59,451 bases of DNA, from IMG/VR virus record IMGVR_UViG_3300031281_000002, positions 1 through 59,451 of that record, one strand, 5' to 3'. Source of the stretch: a virus. Under the pieces are notes generated by a model that did no database searches, had not been told where the DNA came from, and saw only the letters and a program-made list of their open reading frames with translations. Both the position numbers and the translations under genes were made by a program. Positions within the stretch are counted from its first letter, which is position 1; each line of letters opens with the position of its first letter. Below are positions 1,611-59,451 of the stretch, piece by piece.

Positions 1611-4400
1611 ATGTTCGTCGTCGGTGAAGTTGTTGCACCAATCAATGCAGATACAAGGCCTTTTCAACGTGGAATAGCTTCAGCACGAGGAATGGGCTCT
1701 AGTTTTATAAGAGACATTGGTGGCAATATAGAATCATTTGGGAAAAGTATAACTAATCTAGGAGGTCAATTAACAAAAGCAATAACAGTTCCCCTGGCTG
1801 CTGCTGCTATAGGCATTTTTAAGTTTGGCAAAGATTTTGAAACTGAAATGTCAAAAGTGATTGGGTTAGTTGGAGTTTCAAGAGAACAGGTTGAAGAATG
1901 GTCAGATGACATCCTACAACTTGCTCCTACTGTTGGTAAAATGCCTCACGAACTAGCAGACGCAATGTTTTTTGTAACTAGTGCAGGATTAAGAGGAGCA
2001 GCTGCACTAGATGTATTGACCATGTCAGCAAAAGCAAGTGCTGCAGGACTTGGAGAAACTAAAACGATAGCAGACTTGGTTACAAGTGCTATGAATGCAT
2101 ATGGCCAAGAAAATTTATCAGCTGCAAAAGCTACTGATATTATAACTGCTGCTGTTAGAGAAGGAAAGGCAGAAGCTTCTGAATTGGCCGCAACTATGGG
2201 AGCAGTTTTGCCTTTAGCTTCTGAAATGGGTGTAACATTTGACCAGGTTGCCGCTACTCAAGCATCAATGACAAGAACTGGGACAGATGCAGCGGAAGCA
2301 GCTACCCAATTAAAAGGAATATTGGCAGGATTAATAAAACCTAGCAAACAAGCTGAAGAGCAATTAAGAGCAATGGGAACTAGCTCTTCAGAAATGAGGA
2401 AGAAAATTAAGGAAGAAGGTTTGCTTCAAGCTCTTATGGACTTAAGAGAAATGACAAATAAATATGGAGAAGAAGCAATGGCAAGAGTATTTCCTAACAT
2501 TCGGGCATTAATGGGTGTATTGGATTTAATGGGAGGAAATCTTGAGTCAAACAAAGAAACATTCGACAAAGTAACAAATTCAGTTGGAATCCTAGACGAG
2601 GCGTTTAAAGCTGCAAGTGAAACAACTGACTTTAAGTTTAATCAGGCATTGGCACAACTACAAGCAACTGCTATTAAATTTTTTGATGTATTAAAAGCTT
2701 TTTTAGTTCCTATTTTAGAAAAATTTGTAGATGTGCTCGGATTCGTTGGTGATAAATTTGCAGGAATGCCAATGGAACAACAAAAATTAATAGTTGGTTT
2801 TCTTGCTATTGCTGCTGTTGTTGGCCCTGCGATTATGGTAATTGGTACTATAATTGGAACTTTAGGTGCTTTGATTACTGGTATAGGAACAATAGCTGGC
2901 GTTATAGGTTCAATTGGATTAGTTATTCCTGCTGTGATAGCAGGAATAACATTATTGGTTGGTGGATTAGCAGCATTAATGCTGTCAAGTGATGATGTAA
3001 GAAAAGGTTTATCAAATGCATTTAAAAATATTCAAAAATCAATTGGTGGAGCTATTGGTTTTATTAAAACACATATAGATGATATTATAAAAGCTTTTAA
3101 AGGTTTATTTGAAGGAATAGCTACAGGAAACTTTGGCGATTTTATGTCGGCAATGAGTAAACTTGTTCCTCCTGAAATAATGGAAAAAATACATAAAATT
3201 GTTAAGCTATTTGTTAAATTTCAAGATATAATTTTTGCAGTAAGAGATTCAATTATTGACTTTGCTAAAAATATTATTAAATCATTTGGTCCCGTTATAG
3301 ATACATTTAAAGAAACTATATCTAATTTAGATTTCGGAGCTATATTAGGGGGTTTTGACAATTTATTTAACAGTATCCAACCATTAATACCACTTTTTGA
3401 GTTTTTTGCTGGTGTTATAAAAGGTGTTTTTTATGTAGCAATCGGAATTATAGTTGGAGCATTTAATGCTCTTATTTCAATACTACCTAATGTGTATGGA
3501 TTAATTTTAAATTTATATAGTGTAGTTGCGAGTGTTTTTAGTTTAATAGTTGGTATTGTTTCTGGAGATAGCGAAATGATTAAAGAATCTCTGTCAAATT
3601 TATGGGAAAGTATTAAAGGGGTATTTGTTAATGCTATCTTAATTATATTTAATTTTGTAAAAGGTTTTGTTGACGGTATAATTTCATGGTTTCAAGGTCT
3701 TTATGATACATTAGTTGGACATTCTATTATTCCAGATATGATCAATTCTATAATTAAATGGTTTGCTGGATTACCTGGTAAAGTAATAGAAAAAATAAAA
3801 GAACTTGTAAATAATGGTATTTACCATTTTAATAATTTTAAAGATTCGGTCTTAAATAAATTTAAAATTTTAGTAAGTAGAATAAAAGATTTTGTAAATA
3901 AAATTGCAAGTGAAATAAAAACATTAATAAAAAAAGGGTTAGAAGCAGGAAAAGACTTTTTAGGTGGATTGTTTAAAACTGATTTTGTACAGGCTGGAAT
4001 AAATATAGTTAAAGGAATTATAAGAGGTATAAAAAGTATGTTTGGTGAAGTTTCTCGTGTTACTCGCCAATTAGCTGAGAATATAAGAGATTTTTTCCCA
4101 TTTTCGCCAGCAAAGGAAGGACCACTAAAAGATTTAGACAAAATTGATTTTGGAACATCAATAAAAAAATCATTACAAAAAGCATCAAGCATGATTTCTA
4201 TACCAAGTATGCAATTAGGAGCTGAAGTTTTAGCTAATATTAATCAAGGGCAAAATTCAAGTTTTGGAAATAGTTCAAACGGGAATGGATTAAGTGCGAA
4301 TTTTTATGGCGATATAAACCTTGAAGGCATACAGGACATGGAAAGCTTTTTATCAGAAATGAAAAATACAATACAAAAGCATACAGGGAGGAGATTTTAA
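1611..4400 (+). CDS. Tape measure protein
   Basis: 929 aa. The N-terminal third has the TP901-type tape measure core (GKDFETEMSKVIGLVGVSREQ, then TSAGLRGAAALDV, SAMNAYGQENLSAAKATDII, EASELAATMGAVLP). Residues about 400-460 form hydrophobic Ala/Gly/Ile-rich segments typical of the region that becomes membrane-active during DNA ejection, followed by long amphipathic helices. It follows the GT chaperone and overlaps the start of the hub gene by one base (TAATG). Using about 0.15 nm per residue for tape measure proteins, the predicted tail is about 140 nm, consistent with a siphovirus. Confidence 0.97.
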   Translation: MFVVGEVVAPINADTRPFQRGIASARGMGSSFIRDIGGNIESFGKSITNLGGQLTKAITVPLAAAAIGIFKFGKDFETEMSKVIGLVGVSREQVEEWSDDILQLAPTVGKMPHELADAMFFVTSAGLRGAAALDVLTMSAKASAAGLGETKTIADLVTSAMNAYGQENLSAAKATDIITAAVREGKAEASELAATMGAVLPLASEMGVTFDQVAATQASMTRTGTDAAEAATQLKGILAGLIKPSKQAEEQLRAMGTSSSEMRKKIKEEGLLQALMDLREMTNKYGEEAMARVFPNIRALMGVLDLMGGNLESNKETFDKVTNSVGILDEAFKAASETTDFKFNQALAQLQATAIKFFDVLKAFLVPILEKFVDVLGFVGDKFAGMPMEQQKLIVGFLAIAAVVGPAIMVIGTIIGTLGALITGIGTIAGVIGSIGLVIPAVIAGITLLVGGLAALMLSSDDVRKGLSNAFKNIQKSIGGAIGFIKTHIDDIIKAFKGLFEGIATGNFGDFMSAMSKLVPPEIMEKIHKIVKLFVKFQDIIFAVRDSIIDFAKNIIKSFGPVIDTFKETISNLDFGAILGGFDNLFNSIQPLIPLFEFFAGVIKGVFYVAIGIIVGAFNALISILPNVYGLILNLYSVVASVFSLIVGIVSGDSEMIKESLSNLWESIKGVFVNAILIIFNFVKGFVDGIISWFQGLYDTLVGHSIIPDMINSIIKWFAGLPGKVIEKIKELVNNGIYHFNNFKDSVLNKFKILVSRIKDFVNKIASEIKTLIKKGLEAGKDFLGGLFKTDFVQAGINIVKGIIRGIKSMFGEVSRVTRQLAENIRDFFPFSPAKEGPLKDLDKIDFGTSIKKSLQKASSMISIPSMQLGAEVLANINQGQNSSFGNSSNGNGLSANFYGDINLEGIQDMESFLSEMKNTIQKHTGRRF

Positions 4401-19145: not shown

Positions 19146-19355
19146 ATGGAAAACAAAAAATATATTTTAAACAAACTTTTTGACAAAATCGAAGAATGTA
19201 TTATATTCGAAGATGGTGGATTCGAATATAGAAAAGAAAATGGAGTTTTATACTCCAGACAGGATAAAAAAGAAGAATGGACAACAGAAGATTGGGAAGG
19301 AACTACATCAGATTATAATATCTGGAAAAAACTTTTTGAAAGTTTTATTGACTAA
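19146..19355 (+). CDS. Hypothetical acidic protein
   Basis: 69 aa. Start at ATG 19146, seven bases after GGAGG; ATG 19140 is too close. Rich in Glu, Asp and Trp (EEWTTEDWEGTTSDYNIWKK). No family recognised. It is followed by the first copy of a structured pseudoknot element. Confidence 0.5.
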   Translation: MENKKYILNKLFDKIEECIIFEDGGFEYRKENGVLYSRQDKKEEWTTEDWEGTTSDYNIWKKLFESFID

Positions 19356-19359
19356 TTAG

Positions 19360-19407
19360 CTGTTAGCAGCCATCTAACAGGCGGCTGTTATAGAGTTAAT
19401 TACTCTA
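19360..19407 (+). ncRNA. H-type pseudoknot plus hairpin, copy 1
   Basis: Stem CTGTTAG (19360-19366) with CTAACAG (19374-19380); the 7-base loop CAGCCAT pairs through CAGCC with GGCTG at 19383-19387, forming a pseudoknot. It is followed by a conserved hairpin TAGAGT-TAATT-ACTCTA. The same layout with compensatory base changes recurs at 20400-20447. It lies in the gap before the exonuclease gene, just upstream of its SD. Confidence 0.7.
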
Positions 19408-19430
19408 AATAAAAATTATGGAGGTATAAA

Positions 19431-20148: not shown

Positions 20149-20391
20149 ATGTATAAAAATTTTAAAAACAAAGAAACAATAAAAAATTATAGTGAATTTT
20201 GTAATTGGTTAAAACAAAATGATTTAGATTGCAAATATGAAACAAGAATAATAAATAACGATAAAATAGTAATATTTAAGAAAAATGGAAATATGATAAA
20301 TAATGACATGCATTCTTATATGTCTGATAATCCACCTAAAAGCTGGAATATTTTAAAGACATCAATAGAAAAAATAATGAATGCAAAATGA
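20149..20391 (+). CDS. Hypothetical protein
   Basis: 80 aa with AAAGGAG as SD. Lys- and Asn-rich; no domain recognised. It lies between the hammerhead ribozyme and the second pseudoknot element, so its coding segment would be bounded by RNA structures on both sides. Confidence 0.5.
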   Translation: MYKNFKNKETIKNYSEFCNWLKQNDLDCKYETRIINNDKIVIFKKNGNMINNDMHSYMSDNPPKSWNILKTSIEKIMNAK

Positions 20392-20399
20392 ATAATTAG

Positions 20400-20447
20400 C
20401 TGTTAGTACCTATCTAGCAGGTAGGCACTATAGAGTTAATTACTCTA
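20400..20447 (+). ncRNA. H-type pseudoknot plus hairpin, copy 2
   Basis: Same geometry as the copy at 19360: stem CTGTTAG/CTAGCAG (one G-T pair), loop TACCTAT, downstream strand GTAGGCAC, then the identical hairpin TAGAGT-TAATT-ACTCTA. In the register of copy 1, three loop-to-downstream pairs change on both sides (C-G to T-A twice, G-C to C-G) and remain paired, one stays C-G, and one becomes A-C. This supports a real pseudoknot. It precedes the SD of the DHH-like gene. Confidence 0.72.
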
Positions 20448-20471
20448 AATAAAATTATAAGGGAGATTATT

Positions 20472-32708: not shown

Positions 32709-33251
32709 ATGACTAACAATAAAAAAAATAAGCGAGGAAGAAAAAGTAAATATTATACTCATGTAGAACCGAAACTTGACTTGATTGAAGATTGGAGACA
32801 AAAAGGAGATACGGAGGAACAAATATCAAATAAATTAGGAATATCTTATAAATCATTAAATGAATATAAATTAAAATTTCCACAATTTACACAAGTACTA
32901 AGGGCGTCAAAAGAAAGATTGGCAATAAATCTCAAAAAAAGTTTATGGAAAGAAGCTTTAGGATATGAGTATGAAGAGGTAAAAAAAACAGAGGAAAAAA
33001 GTTATTTAGGCAATAAAACAAAAACTGAGAAAACTAAAAAGAAATTTAGAGGACAGCCGAATTTATTAATATTTGCCTTATGTAATTTGTTACCAGATGA
33101 ATTTAAGAGGATTGATAAAGAGATAATTAAAGAATTAGAGGATAAAATTGACGAGAAACTTGAATATAATAATGACATATTCAAAAAAGAGTTTGAAAAG
33201 TTATTTCCAAAAAAGAATATAAAAACAGATAAAGAAACTGGAAAGAAATAA
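32709..33251 (+). CDS. terS: Terminase small subunit
   Basis: 180 aa. RGRKSKYYTHVEPKLDLIED, then WRQKGDTEEQISNKLGISYK, SLNEYKLKFPQFTQVLRASK and LWKEALGYEYEEV match the HTH and core of Firmicutes phage small terminase subunits, which recognise the packaging site and regulate the large subunit. It is 19 bases before the large-subunit gene. The C-terminal third is Lys/Glu-rich, probably contacting the large subunit. Confidence 0.85.
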   Translation: MTNNKKNKRGRKSKYYTHVEPKLDLIEDWRQKGDTEEQISNKLGISYKSLNEYKLKFPQFTQVLRASKERLAINLKKSLWKEALGYEYEEVKKTEEKSYLGNKTKTEKTKKKFRGQPNLLIFALCNLLPDEFKRIDKEIIKELEDKIDEKLEYNNDIFKKEFEKLFPKKNIKTDKETGKK

Positions 33252-33270
33252 AAGGATATAGGTAGCTTTA

Positions 33271-35607
33271 ATGTCACATATAGAATTAAGAGATATTGTA
33301 ACAAATATTACAGATTGGGATCATAAACTTGGTATAGCTCCAAGAACATTTGAACAATTTTATTTTTGGATAAATGAATTTTTTGGATATTACATACCTT
33401 ATTCTAATGAAAAACCGTGTGAAGGACATTCTTATCCTTTATCTGCAATGTGGGAAGCTTATGCCGAAATAACACCGATGGCTATATGGTATGCAAATAG
33501 AGCGGGTGGGAAAACATATGATTTATCTGTTTTATCATTTATGGAATCTATATTTAAAAAAAATTGCGGGATAAATATATTAGGTGGTTCATTAGACCAG
33601 GCACAAAAAGCAATATCGTATTTAACAGAATTTTGGGATTTTCCTAATGCACCAACACATTTATTAGTTGGAAATCAAGTATCTAAAAGAGGATATAAAT
33701 TAACTAATGGGTCATGGGTAAGAGCGTTAGCGGCGAGTTCTAAATCAGTAAGAGGAAGCCATCAACCTAAATTGCGAATTGACGAATGCTTGACAGGTGA
33801 CACATTAATAAAAACAACACATGGATATAAAAAAATAATAGAAATAAATAACAAAGATATAGTATATGGATGGAACGGTGTTAAAATAAAAAAATGTATG
33901 GTACAATATAATTGTTATATGGGTGAGAGAAAAACATATAAAATTTTTTTCTCTAACGGTAAATATATAAATTGTACTGAAAACCATAAAATTTTAACAA
34001 CGAAAGGATATAGAAATTTAAATGAAATCAGAAGGTGGAAATGTAAGGGTGAATCAATCTTTGTTATCGGTGAACGTAAAAAGTTGTTTAATGTGTGGAA
34101 AAAAATTAAATTTAAAAAGAAAATATACAACAGGATATTGCCAAGAATGTTATATAAAATTAAATTCTGTACCAAAAAAATATTGTCAAGATTGCAAAAA
34201 AGAAATAACAAAAAATTCAACGATATGCAGAAGTTGCTATGCAAAAAGAAGAAAAGCAAAGAAACCAAAATGTATAGAATGTGGAAAAGAATTGAGGCAT
34301 ATTGCAAAACGTTGCAAAAAATGCTATTTAAAACACCTTTCGAAAATAGGAATGGATTCAAGAATGGCAAAGGCAAGAGCGACAGCATTGAAGAAAAATC
34401 CAACAAAAGCAGAAATACAAGCATCAGAATTATTAGAATATTTAAAAATATCATATCAATCACAAGTACCATTTGGAAGATACATAGTAGATTTTTTATG
34501 CAAAGATTTAAATTTAATAATAGAGGTACATGGAGAATATTGGCACAACAGAGAAAAGACGATAAAAATAGACGAAAGAAAGAAAATATTTTTAGAAAAA
34601 GAAGGATACAAAGTTCTGGTATTAAAAACAACATTAATGCATTTATGGTTTTCAAAAATTATGAAGTTTATGAAATAGTAAATATAAAAGATGATAAAAT
34701 AAATAAAGTTTATGATTTGAAAATTAAAGGGCTTAAATCATTTTTAGCAAATGGAATAATAGTTCACAATTGCGATGAACTTGATAAAAATATATACTTA
34801 GCGGCTTTGGGGCAGCCAAAAACAATGAATGGAATTCCAGAAAATATAATTATATCATCAACATTGCATCAACCATTTGGTTTAATGAGTGAAATAGTTG
34901 AATCAAAAGATGATATAGGAGCAAAATTATTTAAATGGTGTGTTAAAGAAGTTCAAGAACCACACGGATATTGGAAAGAAGCAGAAATAAAATTAAAAAA
35001 AAGACAGATTACAAAAGCGATGTTCGATGCTGAATATTTATGCCTCCGTCCTAAAATCGGAGATACAATATTCGATTTTGAATCTGTAGATAGGTCCTAT
35101 AGAAGAGGAATTAAAGATAAATATAATAAAAAATTATATACAGAAGCAGGAATCGATTGGGGTTATGCGGTTACAGCAATGAGTATTATACAGGACACTA
35201 AAGAAATATTTACAAATCCTATTACTAAAACTTTTGAGTATATTGAATTGACAGATAGGTGTAGAGAAATAGCTGATTTATGTATAGAATATGATATAAA
35301 GATAATTTATTGTGATAGCAATCCAAAAGACAGTAATATTACATTAAAAAAGATACTTAAAGAAAAAAGATGCCAAACAGAATTGATTACAATAGCATTT
35401 AATAAATGGAAAGATGTTGGAATAAATGTGATAAGATTATTATTAGAAAAAAATAGGCTTAATATAACTGACAAAACAGCACAGGAAAAATGTAAAAAAT
35501 ATCATTATAAGAATCCTGAACAGGGTATTATTGCGAAAGAAGATGATCATATTCCAGATAGTTTAATTGCGTGGGGTAGTTCAAGGCATCATTTATTAGG
35601 AATATAA
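33271..35607 (+). CDS. terL: Terminase large subunit interrupted by an intein
   Basis: 778 aa precursor; removing a 328-aa intein (residues 173-500) leaves 450 aa, a normal size. ATPase: Walker A NRAGGKT (76-82) and Walker B RIDECDELD, which is split by the intein between E172 and C501. Nuclease domain: AGIDWGYAVTAMS, IIYCDSNPKDSN and EDDHIPDSLIAWG supply the RuvC-like acids. It packages DNA into the prohead. Insertion into the Walker B motif means the precursor cannot work until the intein splices out. Rightward neighbours are the type IV-B-like genes, then the portal. Confidence 0.95.
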   Translation: MSHIELRDIVTNITDWDHKLGIAPRTFEQFYFWINEFFGYYIPYSNEKPCEGHSYPLSAMWEAYAEITPMAIWYANRAGGKTYDLSVLSFMESIFKKNCGINILGGSLDQAQKAISYLTEFWDFPNAPTHLLVGNQVSKRGYKLTNGSWVRALAASSKSVRGSHQPKLRIDECLTGDTLIKTTHGYKKIIEINNKDIVYGWNGVKIKKCMVQYNCYMGERKTYKIFFSNGKYINCTENHKILTTKGYRNLNEIRRWKCKGESIFVIGERKKLFNVWKKIKFKKKIYNRILPRMLYKIKFCTKKILSRLQKRNNKKFNDMQKLLCKKKKSKETKMYRMWKRIEAYCKTLQKMLFKTPFENRNGFKNGKGKSDSIEEKSNKSRNTSIRIIRIFKNIISITSTIWKIHSRFFMQRFKFNNRGTWRILAQQRKDDKNRRKKENIFRKRRIQSSGIKNNINAFMVFKNYEVYEIVNIKDDKINKVYDLKIKGLKSFLANGIIVHNCDELDKNIYLAALGQPKTMNGIPENIIISSTLHQPFGLMSEIVESKDDIGAKLFKWCVKEVQEPHGYWKEAEIKLKKRQITKAMFDAEYLCLRPKIGDTIFDFESVDRSYRRGIKDKYNKKLYTEAGIDWGYAVTAMSIIQDTKEIFTNPITKTFEYIELTDRCREIADLCIEYDIKIIYCDSNPKDSNITLKKILKEKRCQTELITIAFNKWKDVGINVIRLLLEKNRLNITDKTAQEKCKKYHYKNPEQGIIAKEDDHIPDSLIAWGSSRHHLLGI
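33787..34770 (+). mobile_element. Intein in terL
   Basis: The product begins CLTGDTLIKTTHGYKKI (Cys1, block A), has TENHKILTTKGYRNL (block B with the H of T-x-x-H region) and ends KVYDLKIKGLKSFLANGIIV-HN before extein Cys (blocks F and G). N- and C-splicing parts cover about 90 and 40 residues. The roughly 190 residues between them are in-frame but look like nonsense protein (Lys, Asn, Ile-rich), because the real gene there is read in another frame. Confidence 0.92.
34022..34678 (+). CDS. Zinc-finger homing endonuclease nested out of frame in the intein
   Basis: Up to 218 aa, read +1 relative to terL. Three four-Cys modules (C22/25/40/43, C55/58/69/72, C84/87/98/101) resemble DNA-binding zinc fingers. 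Residues about 128-190 hold a Vsr/DUF559-like PD-(D/E)xK nuclease: KAEIQASELLEYL, FGRYIVDFLCKDL (D147), IIEVHGEYWH (E158, H160), LEKEGYKVLVLKT. The start is uncertain: ATG 34022, or ATG 34091 just before the first Cys pair. The stop overlaps the C-terminal splicing domain. It is probably the homing endonuclease that spreads the intein. Confidence 0.8.
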   Translation: MKSEGGNVRVNQSLLSVNVKSCLMCGKKLNLKRKYTTGYCQECYIKLNSVPKKYCQDCKKEITKNSTICRSCYAKRRKAKKPKCIECGKELRHIAKRCKKCYLKHLSKIGMDSRMAKARATALKKNPTKAEIQASELLEYLKISYQSQVPFGRYIVDFLCKDLNLIIEVHGEYWHNREKTIKIDERKKIFLEKEGYKVLVLKTTLMHLWFSKIMKFMK

Positions 35608-35619
35608 TTTGGAGGTTTT

Positions 35620-36306
35620 ATGACTAATACTGAAATTATAAGTAAACATTCAAATATAAATTTGAATGTAGATAAATCAAAAATTAAAAATACTATTTGC
35701 AAAATATGTGGAAAAGAAAAAGAATCAATAAAAGAAAAGGAGATCATATCTTCTAATTTTACAAATTATGATTTATGTAAATGTAAAGAAAGTTTATTTA
35801 TATGTGTTGATTGTGCGAAATGTATAAAAGATATTGAGCTAAGAAGAAATAATTTTATTGCTGATAAAAATAATTTATATTTATTCAAAAAGAATGATAT
35901 AGAAAAATATATTTTTAATATTGATAGATATATTAAAAATGATTTTGTTGCTGGAGTTACATATACATTTAAAAAACATAATTCATTTAAATGTAATGTT
36001 AATTCTGATTATAATAAATTTTATATACAGCAAGAGGATGATAAAATATTTTTTGATGTCAAAAAAGCTAAAAAAATATATGATATCTTAAATGATGCCT
36101 ATTTATATTTTACAAAGGATGAATTATTAACTGGTGAATATAAAGCAATTTCAGTAATGCAATATGGATTAACTTCATTTGATTTATTAGAAAATATTCT
36201 AAAAGATATTAGAAAAACAAATTTATTTAAATTTTTAATATATATATTAAATTCTGAAAAAAGAAATGAAATATTACAAGAAAGAAGGAAAGTAAATGGA
36301 AGATGA
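35620..36306 (+). CDS. csf1: Csf1-like protein (type IV CRISPR-Cas large-subunit analogue)
   Basis: 228 aa, GGAGG upstream, 12 bases after terL. Zinc-finger cysteines at 27, 30, 53, 55, 62, 65 and 68 frame SSNFTNYDL, a pattern resembling the N-terminal zinc finger of Csf1 (C-x2-C ... S-F-T-D ... C-x2-C). The rest is alpha/beta without known motifs. In type IV systems Csf1 is the Cas8-like subunit at the foot of the effector complex. It overlaps the next gene. The assignment rests on the finger pattern plus gene order; sequence identity to known Csf1 could not be tested here. Confidence 0.7.
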   Translation: MTNTEIISKHSNINLNVDKSKIKNTICKICGKEKESIKEKEIISSNFTNYDLCKCKESLFICVDCAKCIKDIELRRNNFIADKNNLYLFKKNDIEKYIFNIDRYIKNDFVAGVTYTFKKHNSFKCNVNSDYNKFYIQQEDDKIFFDVKKAKKIYDILNDAYLYFTKDELLTGEYKAISVMQYGLTSFDLLENILKDIRKTNLFKFLIYILNSEKRNEILQERRKVNGR

Positions 36307-36676
36307 AAAAATAAAAGATTTAGCAATTATATCATTGGTTGCTGTTTGGGATAAAATTGACTGGGATAAAATAAAACTTGAAAGAGCGTATAAAATATGG
36401 GATGAATTTTCAAACAAAGTAAGAGCATCAGCATTTACTACAAATAAATTTAATATATTCATAAATAAATTATGTAAAAAACTTGATATAGCTGCATTAT
36501 CAGACAGATGCCTTAATGAAATTATCGAAATGGATGATGATATAAAATATAAAATACTTGATTTGATTAGAAATGATTTACATTCAGTAATTTTAGCTAT
36601 GAGACTAAATATTGAGATTAGAAAACAAGAACGTGAAATAAGAAAAAATAAAGAAAGTGAAGTGAATACCATATGA
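36296..36676 (+). CDS. Cas11-like small subunit
   Basis: 126 aa, overlapping csf1 by 11 bases and csf2 by four. Predicted entirely helical (IKDLAIISLVAVWDKIDWDK, then NIFINKLCKKLDIAALSDRC), ending in a very charged helix. Type IV-B loci encode a small helical Cas11 between csf1 and csf2, the position seen here. The call is mainly positional. Confidence 0.6.
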   Translation: MEDEKIKDLAIISLVAVWDKIDWDKIKLERAYKIWDEFSNKVRASAFTTNKFNIFINKLCKKLDIAALSDRCLNEIIEMDDDIKYKILDLIRNDLHSVILAMRLNIEIRKQEREIRKNKESEVNTI

Positions 36677-37518
36677 AAATTGATTTAGAATTAAAATTAA
36701 AAAGTCCATTATGCCATTTCGGAGATGAAAGAATGGGAACTATGCAAGTTTTAAGAACTATGAAATTTTTATATGGAGATAAATATATTGATGTACCTGT
36801 ATATTCTGGAAATGCCATGAGAGGTATATTAAGAAGATATGCAATGAAACATTATATAGATATGTTAGAATTGCCTGATGGAATTTCAACAAAATTATTT
36901 TATATGTTATTTTCTGGTGGTGCAATTACATCAGGGTCAAGATATGAAAAAATAGAAGAAAAAAGAGAAATGAGAAAAAAGTGTCCACCACTTGCATTGT
37001 TTGGGACAGCAATTGGAGACCAGATAACAGAAGGTAAATTAAAATGTGGAATATTAAAACCAATATGCAAAGAATTAAATGATTATAATAATACCAAAAG
37101 CGATATATCTATATATGATATGCTTGAAGATATTTTTTATACAAGAAGAGATGATTTGAAAAGTCAAAGCAAAATAAAAGTAAAAAACAAAGAAATAAAA
37201 GTAAAAAAAGATGGGAAAGAAGATAAAAAGAAAGAAAATCCAGTTCAAATGAAATACGAAATTCAAGCTATATCAACAGGAAGTATTTTGGAAGGTAGAA
37301 TTATTATAGAGAATGAAAACGAAATTGAAAAAGCGTGTTTATTTTCTACATTAAATCAGTTAGATAAAATTCCATATATCGGCGGGAAATCAGCGACAGG
37401 ACACGGAGAAATCGAGCTAAATTATAGCAGAGAAGGATTTGATATCTATAATGAATATATTAAAAACAATAAAAATGATATTCTAGAATGGCTAATTAAA
37501 ACAGAAGGAATTTTATAA
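36673..37518 (+). CDS. csf2: Csf2-like Cas7 (RAMP) protein
   Basis: 281 aa. RAMP features: KSPLCHFGDE near the start, VPVYSGNAMRGILRR (46-55 region, as in Cas7/Csf2 GN-x-x-RG-x-x-R), SGGAITSGSRY (81-91), PPLALFGTAIGDQITEGKLK, and a C-terminal glycine-rich loop IGGKSATGHGE (236-246). Cas7 subunits form the helical backbone that holds the guide RNA. A Lys-rich insert at about 165-190 is unusual and may bind nucleic acid. Two bases separate it from the CysH-like gene. Confidence 0.78.
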   Translation: MKIDLELKLKSPLCHFGDERMGTMQVLRTMKFLYGDKYIDVPVYSGNAMRGILRRYAMKHYIDMLELPDGISTKLFYMLFSGGAITSGSRYEKIEEKREMRKKCPPLALFGTAIGDQITEGKLKCGILKPICKELNDYNNTKSDISIYDMLEDIFYTRRDDLKSQSKIKVKNKEIKVKKDGKEDKKKENPVQMKYEIQAISTGSILEGRIIIENENEIEKACLFSTLNQLDKIPYIGGKSATGHGEIELNYSREGFDIYNEYIKNNKNDILEWLIKTEGIL

Positions 37519-37519
37519 A

Positions 37520-38248
37520 ATGAATTTTGTTGAAAGAAAAATAAATAATTTTTATAGAATAATTGATAAAGCAATGAATAAATATAAAAAACATTATATT
37601 AGTTGCAGTTGGGGTAAGGATTCAATTTTAGTAGTACATTTGATAATATCAAGATATCCAGACACAACAATAATTTTTATGAATTCTGGATATGCTTTAT
37701 CAGATATATATAAATTTAGGGATTATTATTTGAAAGAATATAGAGTAAAAAATTATATAGAATTAAAATGTCCTCATGATTATGTTGAATTAAATTTAAA
37801 ATATGGGTTACCTTCGATTGACAGAAGTATTTCAGATCATGAAAAAGTTAAAAATATAATAAAAAAAGATGTAATTGATGAATGGGCAATAAAAAATAAT
37901 TATGATTGTTGTTTTTGGGGAATAAGAGCAGATGAAACAGCAGGTAGAAAAAAATTATTAAGAAAATATGGATTGTTATATAGAACTTCTGAAATAGCAA
38001 AATGTTCACCTATTGGATGGTGGGGAAATAATGATGTATGGAATATTATTGATTGTTTAAACATTCCATATTCTAAAATATATGATAAAGAACTTAAACC
38101 ATTTTTTACAAGAGATACAATAAAAAATGGTGGATATTTAACAACAGATAAAGCTAATAAAGGTAGGATAATTTGGTTAAAAAAATTTTATCCTACTGAT
38201 TATGAAAAATTATTTTCGAAATTTATTGAGGTAAAAAAATATGTTTGA
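37520..38248 (+). CDS. CysH-like PP-loop protein of the type IV-B locus
   Basis: 242 aa. PP-loop SCSWGKDS (28-35, a variant of SGGKDS), then TIIFMNSGYALSDIYKFRDY, ECPHDY-like LKCPHDYVEL, CCFWGIRADETAGRKKLL and CSPIGWWGNNDVWNII, i.e. the PAPS-reductase/adenine-hydrolase core. A cysH-like gene is the hallmark accessory gene of type IV-B CRISPR-Cas loci; its biochemical role there is unknown. Here it is inserted between csf2 and csf3 and overlaps csf3 by eight bases. It is distinct from the PP-loop protein at 26579. Confidence 0.85.
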   Translation: MNFVERKINNFYRIIDKAMNKYKKHYISCSWGKDSILVVHLIISRYPDTTIIFMNSGYALSDIYKFRDYYLKEYRVKNYIELKCPHDYVELNLKYGLPSIDRSISDHEKVKNIIKKDVIDEWAIKNNYDCCFWGIRADETAGRKKLLRKYGLLYRTSEIAKCSPIGWWGNNDVWNIIDCLNIPYSKIYDKELKPFFTRDTIKNGGYLTTDKANKGRIIWLKKFYPTDYEKLFSKFIEVKKYV

Positions 38249-38930
38249 AAATTGTAAAATAACGTTTAGAATGAGCACTCCAATTGCAATTATGGGGTAT
38301 ATATTTTTAGATGCTTTAATATCGGCAGCATGTGCAAAGGAAATGCTTGGTGACGATTATTATAATGGGTTAATGAATCAAAAAGATTTAAATGGTGGGC
38401 ATGAATTTAATACTGATGATTTACCAATATATTTTAATAAGACATTAAATATTTATCATGCAAGTACTGGATTTGGTGATAATTTAGAATCTGTATGCAG
38501 TTGGTCGAAGAGATGGGATAATAAAAATGATAATATTGTAAAATTTAAAGGAAATACAAAAGGTAGAGTTGATATTGGTGCTGGATATTATAAAAATTAT
38601 CATATGCCAATTATAATTAAATCATATAAAAATATATATTTTTATGCAAATTGTGAAATCAAAAAAGTTGAATATCTTTTAAATAAATATATACATTTTA
38701 TTGGAAAAAAACCATCACAAGGCTATGGAGAAATAAAAGAAATAATTGTTAAGAAAATGAATAACGATTATAGCATATGGGATAAATCAAATAATAATAA
38801 ACATATATTAAGACGACCAATTATGGTTTCATCACAAAAGAATAAATTATCAAATAGGATAGAAAAAATATCTGTACGGCCACCATATTGGAGAACTGAT
38901 TATTTGGAATATTGTTATATGCCAGAATAA
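38241..38930 (+). CDS. csf3: Csf3-like Cas5 (RAMP) protein
   Basis: 229 aa. FRMSTPIAIMGYIFLDALIS near the start matches the T-P-I ... L-D-x-L motif of Csf3/Cas5, and KKPSQGYGEIKEI (156-168) is the RAMP glycine-rich loop. DLPIYFNKTLNIYHASTGF also fits the Csf3 layout. In type IV complexes it caps the 5' end of the guide. It is the last gene of the set; the portal gene follows after about 95 bases. No cas6, dinG or CRISPR array was found. Confidence 0.75.
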   Translation: MFENCKITFRMSTPIAIMGYIFLDALISAACAKEMLGDDYYNGLMNQKDLNGGHEFNTDDLPIYFNKTLNIYHASTGFGDNLESVCSWSKRWDNKNDNIVKFKGNTKGRVDIGAGYYKNYHMPIIIKSYKNIYFYANCEIKKVEYLLNKYIHFIGKKPSQGYGEIKEIIVKKMNNDYSIWDKSNNNKHILRRPIMVSSQKNKLSNRIEKISVRPPYWRTDYLEYCYMPE

Positions 38931-59270: not shown

Positions 59271-59451
59271 TATCCTCAGATTTTTGTCAATGGTTAGAAA
59301 ATAATAATTTTGGTACATATGGTGATGATATATTTGATACGTTTATGCAAGATGCTCCAGATAATTTAATCTTAATTGAGGACGTTTCATCTTTTAGCAT
59401 TCCTGAATCAAGTAGCTTGAAAGTTGACTTATATTCAATAAAAATAACAGC
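59267..59451 (+). CDS. Minor capsid / tail-completion protein (5' part, wraps round the circle)
   Basis: The ATG overlaps the stop of the gp10-like gene. The frame (MISSDFCQWLENNNFGTYGD) runs off the window and continues at base 1 to 350, giving 135 aa. It confirms that the contig closes on itself. Confidence 0.85.
   Translation, partial: MISSDFCQWLENNNFGTYGDDIFDTFMQDAPDNLILIEDVSSFSIPESSSLKVDLYSIKIT
59325..59451. repeat. Terminal direct repeat (right copy)
   Basis: Exact copy of bases 1-127. It should be counted once when the circle is closed. Confidence 0.95.

Follow-up and report, generated by a model that had tools for sequence, protein, structure and literature searches.

A terL intein of a phage contig with a predicted Vsr-like homing endonuclease overprinted in the +1 reading frame

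The window analyzed here is the whole of virus record IMGVR_UViG_3300031281_000002 (positions 1–59,451; 59,451 nucleotides). The subject is an intein within its large terminase gene, terL, together with an endonuclease gene that occupies the same DNA in another reading frame. Three relatives share this layout: L001 (IMG/VR contig 3300030616_000166) and two loci, L092 and L055, that were recovered by an intein C-junction scan of IMG/VR. The features of the locus in the window are listed below.

33271–35607, + strand: terL (large terminase) including the intein, a single uninterrupted frame of 778 codons
33271–33786, + strand: N-extein of TerL, ending at Walker B (KLRIDE)
33787–34770, + strand: intein, from C1 to HN, 328 residues
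33787–34080, + strand: N-terminal splicing region, with block A (CLTGDTLI), block B (CTENHKIL) and the strand KGESIFVIGERK; 3' limit set by eye
34003–34008, + strand: candidate ribosome-binding site AAAGGA within the intein codons for TTKGY, kept in L001 and L092; putative role
34022–34678, + strand: overprinted gene of the predicted homing endonuclease, +1 relative to terL, 218 amino acids, stop codon TAG at 34676–34678
34022–34085, + strand: dual-coding stretch, with the endonuclease N-terminus and the intein strand GESIFVIGERK on the same DNA
34085–34150, + strand: C4 zinc finger 1 (CxxC..CxxC, amino acids 22–43), kept in the window, L001, L092 and L055
34184–34237, + strand: C4 zinc finger 2 (CxxC..CxxC, amino acids 55–72), kept in the same four
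34271–34324, + strand: C4 zinc finger 3 (CxxC..CxxC, amino acids 84–101), kept in the same four
34367–34624, + strand: Vsr-like/DUF559 nuclease domain (amino acids 116–201; PF04480 DUF559, E 9e-13; profile matches to 1cw0 and 3r3p)
34679–34770, + strand: C-terminal splicing region (VYDLKI...FLANGIIVHN), beginning past the endonuclease stop codon
34771–35607, + strand: C-extein of TerL, with Cys+1 as its first residue (CDELDKN)

The original prediction, made from the sequence of the window, had held that the terL frame stays open through the intein, and the frame does form one open reading frame (ORF) of 778 amino acids. The insert was matched by intein profiles (Pfam Intein_splicing, E 8e-11; NCBIfam intein_Nterm, 1.4e-7, and intein_Cterm, 1.6e-5). 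All sequence marks of a class 1 intein were found, namely Cys1 (CLTGDTLI), TxxH (CTENHKIL), the C-terminal VHN and Cys+1, and these are also kept in L001, L092 and L055. The C-terminal block reads VYDLKIKGLKSFLANGIIVHN and is followed directly by Cys+1. Judged by sequence criteria, the insert of the window is an intein. Its insertion point is the Walker B motif (RIDE|CDE), and a Walker-B pattern scan returned intein-free homologues in which the same site is empty, KLRIDE|VDELE in L049 and KLRIDE|ADELD in L051. Both have terS upstream, and L049 has the portal gene downstream. In the window terS likewise lies 5' of terL (82.6% identical in L001), the spliced TerL exteins gave remote terminase matches, and they are 61% identical to the intein-free terL of L049.

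The same prediction had read the +1 frame as three C4 zinc fingers and a Vsr/DUF559-like nuclease, and the profile matches bear this out. The core of the nuclease domain was modeled confidently by AlphaFold, and the closest solved fold was I-Bth0305I (3r3p, Foldseek E 1.8e-5), followed by Vsr (1cw0). Residues D157, E168, H170, G171, Y173, W174 and H175 are invariant across 19 endonuclease relatives, while E131, D184 and W209 are nearly invariant across the same set. By sequence and model, the product is thus a predicted homing endonuclease with the Vsr-like (EDxHD) fold and active site. Its frame is shut directly 5' of the ATG by a TAA at 34019–34021. The endonuclease is at +1 in all four loci, with a Met-Lys-Ser start at the corresponding place, and its identity to the window protein is 89% in L001, 63% in L092 and 45% in L055. 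Since the endonuclease is out of the frame of the splicing domain in the window, L001, L092 and L055, none of the four is a canonical full-length intein.

To assess the open terL frame, the endonuclease protein was kept fixed and synonymous codons were drawn from the phage's own genes in 20,000 recodings. A mean of 21.8 terL-frame stops was expected in the overlap with a minimum of 8, and none was observed. The relatives behaved in the same way: L001, L092 and L055 have no terL-frame stops against expectations of 22.3, 20.8 and 16.6, compared with 22.1 for the window in the same set. Codon choice reveals how the frame is kept open. A wobble T before AA, AG or GA, which would create a stop in terL, occurs in 0 of 80 codons of the nuclease gene, as against 44 of 137 in other contexts, while the phage's other genes use wobble T at 36% before AA/AG/GA and at 40% elsewhere. 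Around the same nuclease motif in 36 other loci, both other same-strand frames are open for at most 87 codons; in the L001 contig, one of them is open for 780 codons. The open terL frame is neither chance nor an indel artefact. The prediction had also cautioned that a minus-strand frame is open here and that composition might contribute to the lack of stops. The minus-strand frame over the nuclease gene is indeed nearly open (two stops seen vs. 14.6 expected), which follows from the same wobble-T avoidance.

The comparison of the window with L001 shows which frame is under selection. L001 has the same layout, with a terL of 778 amino acids and an endonuclease of 218, and the nested ORF differs from that of the window by substitutions only, with no indel in the overlap. 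The ratio of nonsynonymous to synonymous substitution rates (dN/dS), a check that had been proposed for both frames, was 0.12 in the endonuclease frame of the overlap and 1.56 in the terL frame, while it was 0.07 in the exteins, 0.20 in the intein N block and 0.14 in the C block. Of the 70 changes in the overlap, 44 lie at third positions of endonuclease codons. Therefore, the endonuclease and the flanking splicing blocks are constrained proteins, whereas the terL-frame filler between them drifts freely and is barred only from containing stops. This agrees with the earlier claims that these terL-frame residues are nonsense and that both frames have to stay open. The predicted extent of roughly 190 residues needs a small correction: the overlap comprises 219 codons and its ends reach conserved intein codons. 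At 34022–34085 there are few differences between the window and L001, KGE-IFVIGERKKLF is retained, and both frames seem to matter on sequence grounds, with the KGESIFVIGERK strand in one and the endonuclease N-terminus in the other.

A tblastn search of 50,697 phage records with the endonuclease, the whole terL and the intein as queries yielded no close relative. When IMG/VR was first scanned, with a single sequence or an alignment of two, nothing came up beyond the L001 contig and one partial zinc-finger match. In bacterial genomes the sole hit of the scans was an endonuclease ORF that interrupts the recA gene of a Bacillus (L052).

An out-of-frame layout nevertheless predominated among the Walker B inteins of terL covered here, contrary to the original view that an overprinted endonuclease nested in an intein is unusual. 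IMG/VR was scanned for NGxxVHN|CDE junctions, yielding 117 usable loci, which represent one motif and not a random sample of inteins. A hidden Markov model (HMM) of the HNH endonuclease, built from nested ORFs of these loci, matched in the +2 frame in 100 of the 117, a count that applies to the HNH family rather than to endonucleases of all kinds, as the model was made from the same loci. The terL frame is open across the HNH gene in 98 of the 100, and the other two contigs begin within the endonuclease. In the terL frame of the 117 loci the model found no match. Ten of the 17 loci without a +2 HNH match were read individually: two proved to be the Vsr-like +1 relatives (L055, L092), five are mini-intein-like (L066, L117, L127, L147, L149), two are split forms (L080, and L135 with an HNH domain joined to its C half), and one, L139, has a larger in-frame intein, apparently in another protein. 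In Pfam searches HNH_3 was present in all five nested ORFs tested, and the terminase domain in all three host-frame ORFs tested, of which two had an intein match near E 1e-7 and the third, L067, a weak one (0.0015). A scan with the RATA motif returned nothing but false positives beyond known members.

The HNH cases repeat the signature of the window. Among 62 representatives (95% nucleotide identity), no terL-frame stops were present against 179.4 expected in sum; individually, 29 of the 62 were at or below 0.05 in the stop resampling, which is weak for single cases in GC-rich contigs, so that the pooled figure carries the weight. Over 50 HNH pairs, which are not mutually independent since neighbouring pairs share ancestry, pN/pS had a median of 0.18 when the endonuclease frame was considered and of 1.36 for terL. 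At the best HNH start codon, pairing with the anti-Shine-Dalgarno sequence averaged −6.0 kcal/mol, compared with −3.7 kcal/mol at matched control positions. In 46 of the 62 cases a start codon lies 3' of the intein Gly-Asp codons, and the Gly codon is GGG or GGA in 27 of these 46, vs. 28% in exteins. Judging from this position and codon shift, the Gly-Asp codons may double as the ribosome-binding site of the HNH gene.

Overprinted endonucleases were also found elsewhere. In the cultured Tetrasphaera phage TJE1 (L172:502–2688) a +2 HNH gene lies within an unannotated terL intein, the GenBank label being large terminase only, and Rhodobacteraceae phage LS06-2018-MD07 also has a +2 HNH gene in a terL intein. 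Both inteins seem, from sequence and with the nuclease domain recognized by eye, to occupy another terL site, DH|C or DH|S. In Vibrio phage 1.265.O (L007:2551–3570), a DUF559 ORF (locus positions 2683–3423) lies antisense and wholly within the intein of the head morphogenesis protein. The intein frame would be expected to hold 13.6 stops (minimum 5 in 5,000) but holds none. Most of the query was missing from 109 related records, relatives at 85% identity are intein-free, and the head morphogenesis gene has the intein-free length in 1.198.A and 1.119.O. The extein lengths of 1.265.O fit better with an intein starting with Ala (HWN|ACARGT), which would therefore be a non-class-1 intein. Free-standing members of the HNH family occur as well: Brevundimonas phage Poludnitsa (L180:2501–2974) has an unannotated HNH ORF between terL and portal, and Sphaerotilus phage SN1 has one just 3' of terL. 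Such ORFs are possible donors of the overprinted type.

Taken together, we consider it very likely that the window carries a cis-splicing intein in terL and a homing endonuclease translated from an internal start. A mobile intein would occupy the Walker B motif, and ribosomes starting at the terL ATG would translate right through it. The splicing domain (33787 to ~34080 and ~34660–34770) would then excise all 328 residues, including about 200 of filler, leaving a functional TerL; we infer splicing in cis because the splicing blocks are intact and constrained. Read in +1 from an internal start, most likely the ATG at 34022, the same DNA would give the zinc-finger Vsr-like endonuclease, which as a free protein would cleave terL alleles lacking the intein at the point where it inserts, and repair of the break would copy the intein into them. 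Homing is suggested by the endonuclease family, its fold and the empty sites. Selection would preserve the endonuclease protein and bar changes that create stops in the terL frame. Several points weigh against this explanation. Splicing, internal initiation, DNA cleavage and homing are all deduced from sequence. AlphaFold gave no usable model of the intein as translated in the terL frame (predicted local distance difference test score of 36), so splicing with the filler in place lacks structural support. The AAAGGA upstream of ATG 34022 is of moderate strength with a somewhat long spacing of 13 nucleotides, and the GTG at 34049 is an alternative start.

The latter points bear on how the endonuclease is translated. 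Programmed +1 ribosomal frameshifting in terL could instead yield it as a fusion of the N-terminal intein half (IntN) to the endonuclease. The long overlap of the frames would allow a shift past 34022, and the first endonuclease codons lie within the conserved dual-coded stretch. On the other hand, the Met-Lys-Ser start is kept in the window, L001, L092 and L055, L055 has a strong GGAGG upstream of it, and the HNH cousins have start codons with sequences resembling ribosome-binding sites. No slippery site was identified, though no systematic search for one was made. We regard frameshifting as unlikely.

Trans-splicing of two terL halves, with a free endonuclease gene between them as in fractured genes, would produce a similar order of parts, and such layouts exist. 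In L033 (4399–6855) an RNA ligase is split into a ligase-IntN ORF, an endonuclease ORF with EVHGDYWH and an ORF joining the C-terminal intein half (IntC) to the rest of the ligase, and in the helicase intein of Pectobacterium phage Amona a LAGLIDADG ORF occupies a different frame. However, the host frame of L033 has many stops across its DUF559-like endonuclease and that of Amona is also interrupted by stops, whereas the window and its three relatives have none where about 20 would be expected if the frame were free. A split system is therefore very improbable here. Related arrangements were seen in Vibrio phage Va1 (L006:1122–4539), where terL consists of two overlapping ORFs in different frames and the second encodes a DUF559 endonuclease that shares its frame with the C-terminal half of the intein only, and in Streptococcus phage GXN1, where the endonuclease is fused to one intein half only.

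It is still less probable that the insert is tolerated unspliced, like the mobile element of phage ShiLan, which follows the same out-of-frame logic (PMC11855218). The splicing blocks, C1, TxxH, HN and C+1 are present and constrained, and an unspliced insert of 328 residues should abolish the ATPase, as the site is within Walker B.

The remaining explanations can be dismissed briefly, each having a negligible chance of being correct. Two compensating frameshifts, from sequencing or assembly errors or recent indels, could have displaced an in-frame endonuclease in a single metagenomic contig, but L001 has equal protein lengths and no overlap indel, the +1 offset persists in L092 (63% identical) and L055 (45%), codon choice precisely suits the second frame, and homologous inteins carrying this nuclease in frame, which had been named as the refuting finding, were sought without success, all relatives having it out of frame. 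An unconstrained terL frame, open merely by A-rich and T-poor composition, is suggested by the very A-rich insert and its nearly open minus strand, yet the recodings with the phage's own codon usage, the normal use of wobble T where it is harmless and the equal stop avoidance of L055 at 52% GC (L092 is at 28%) speak against it. Finally, Vsr-like endonucleases are common in introns (I-Bth0305I; the L052 case in recA), but there was no Rfam match up to E = 1 across 33200–35700 to suggest a group I or II intron, the intein blocks are constrained and the terL frame is open throughout.

Beyond the window, we think it somewhat more probable than the contrary that overprinted homing endonucleases are a widespread and under-recognized intein layout and the norm at the terL Walker B site. 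They would have arisen there at least twice (Vsr-like in +1, HNH in +2), again at another terL site (TJE1, LS06-2018-MD07) and once in antisense (1.265.O). The layout would uncouple the endonuclease dose from terL expression, with initiation at a ribosome-binding site that conserved intein codons conceal (Gly-Asp in the HNH family), while translation of terL would always run through. If a survey looks for endonuclease domains in nothing but the intein's own translation, such cases would escape it and be scored as lacking an endonuclease; mobile inteins therefore probably make up a larger share in phages than has been estimated. The family also offers a large natural collection of long gene overlaps, one frame being under selection as a protein while the only demand on the other is that it stay open, so that what overprinting costs and how it originates can be measured. 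A path linking the mini-intein, the overprinted intein and the split intein with a free endonuclease can be suggested.

Elsewhere in the window, a Type IV CRISPR-like cluster occupies 35620–38930 between terL and portal, with a csf1-like gene, an unknown ORF, a csf2-like gene, cysH and a csf3-like gene (NCBIfam TIGR03114, 4.6e-6; TIGR03115, 4.6e-13; TIGR03116, 1e-13). The cluster looks like an insertion, since in the L001 contig and in L049 portal directly follows terL on its 3' side. No CRISPR array was among the 20 largest direct-repeat families shown for the window. A pair of 66-bp repeats (19349–19414 and 20389–20454), 83% alike, lies in intergenic gaps. The contig ends are identical over 127 bp (1–127 and 59325–59451), so the contig probably represents a phage genome in full, either circular or with terminal redundancy.

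Among known systems, the closest published element is that of ShiLan, in which the host frame is open and another frame encodes a zinc-finger homing-type endonuclease, without an intein splicing domain, and the insert is thought to remain in the protein (PMC11855218). Both are mobile inserts with an open host frame and an out-of-frame zinc-finger endonuclease; unlike in ShiLan, the insert of the window is an intein whose host gene is essential, and its nuclease is Vsr-like. In connection with overlapping frames, the ShiLan paper cites Gorbalenya 1998 and, for actinobacteriophages, a bioRxiv preprint (PMC11855218); an earlier description of out-of-frame endonucleases in inteins may exist, and we do not claim priority for the overprinted architecture. 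The biochemically tested terL inteins of mycobacteriophages BAKA (TerL1-b) and Bethlehem (TerL1-c) were considered as out-of-frame examples and rejected, as their LAGLIDADG blocks are in frame (PMC5050341); they thus do not support overprinting. These canonical full-length inteins resemble the window in that an intein in the TerL ATPase domain has its endonuclease between the splicing blocks, and differ in that the endonuclease of the window is at +1 and the in-frame residues are filler. With I-Bth0305I and Vsr (3r3p, 1cw0) the endonuclease shares the nuclease fold and active-site residues; I-Bth0305I is, however, intron-encoded (3r3p being named a mobile intron protein), while the protein described here is intein-overprinted and has three N-terminal C4 fingers. 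The split inteins of L033 and Amona likewise place an out-of-frame endonuclease between IntN and IntC, but their host frames have stops and the halves must trans-splice, whereas the host frame of the window is continuous.
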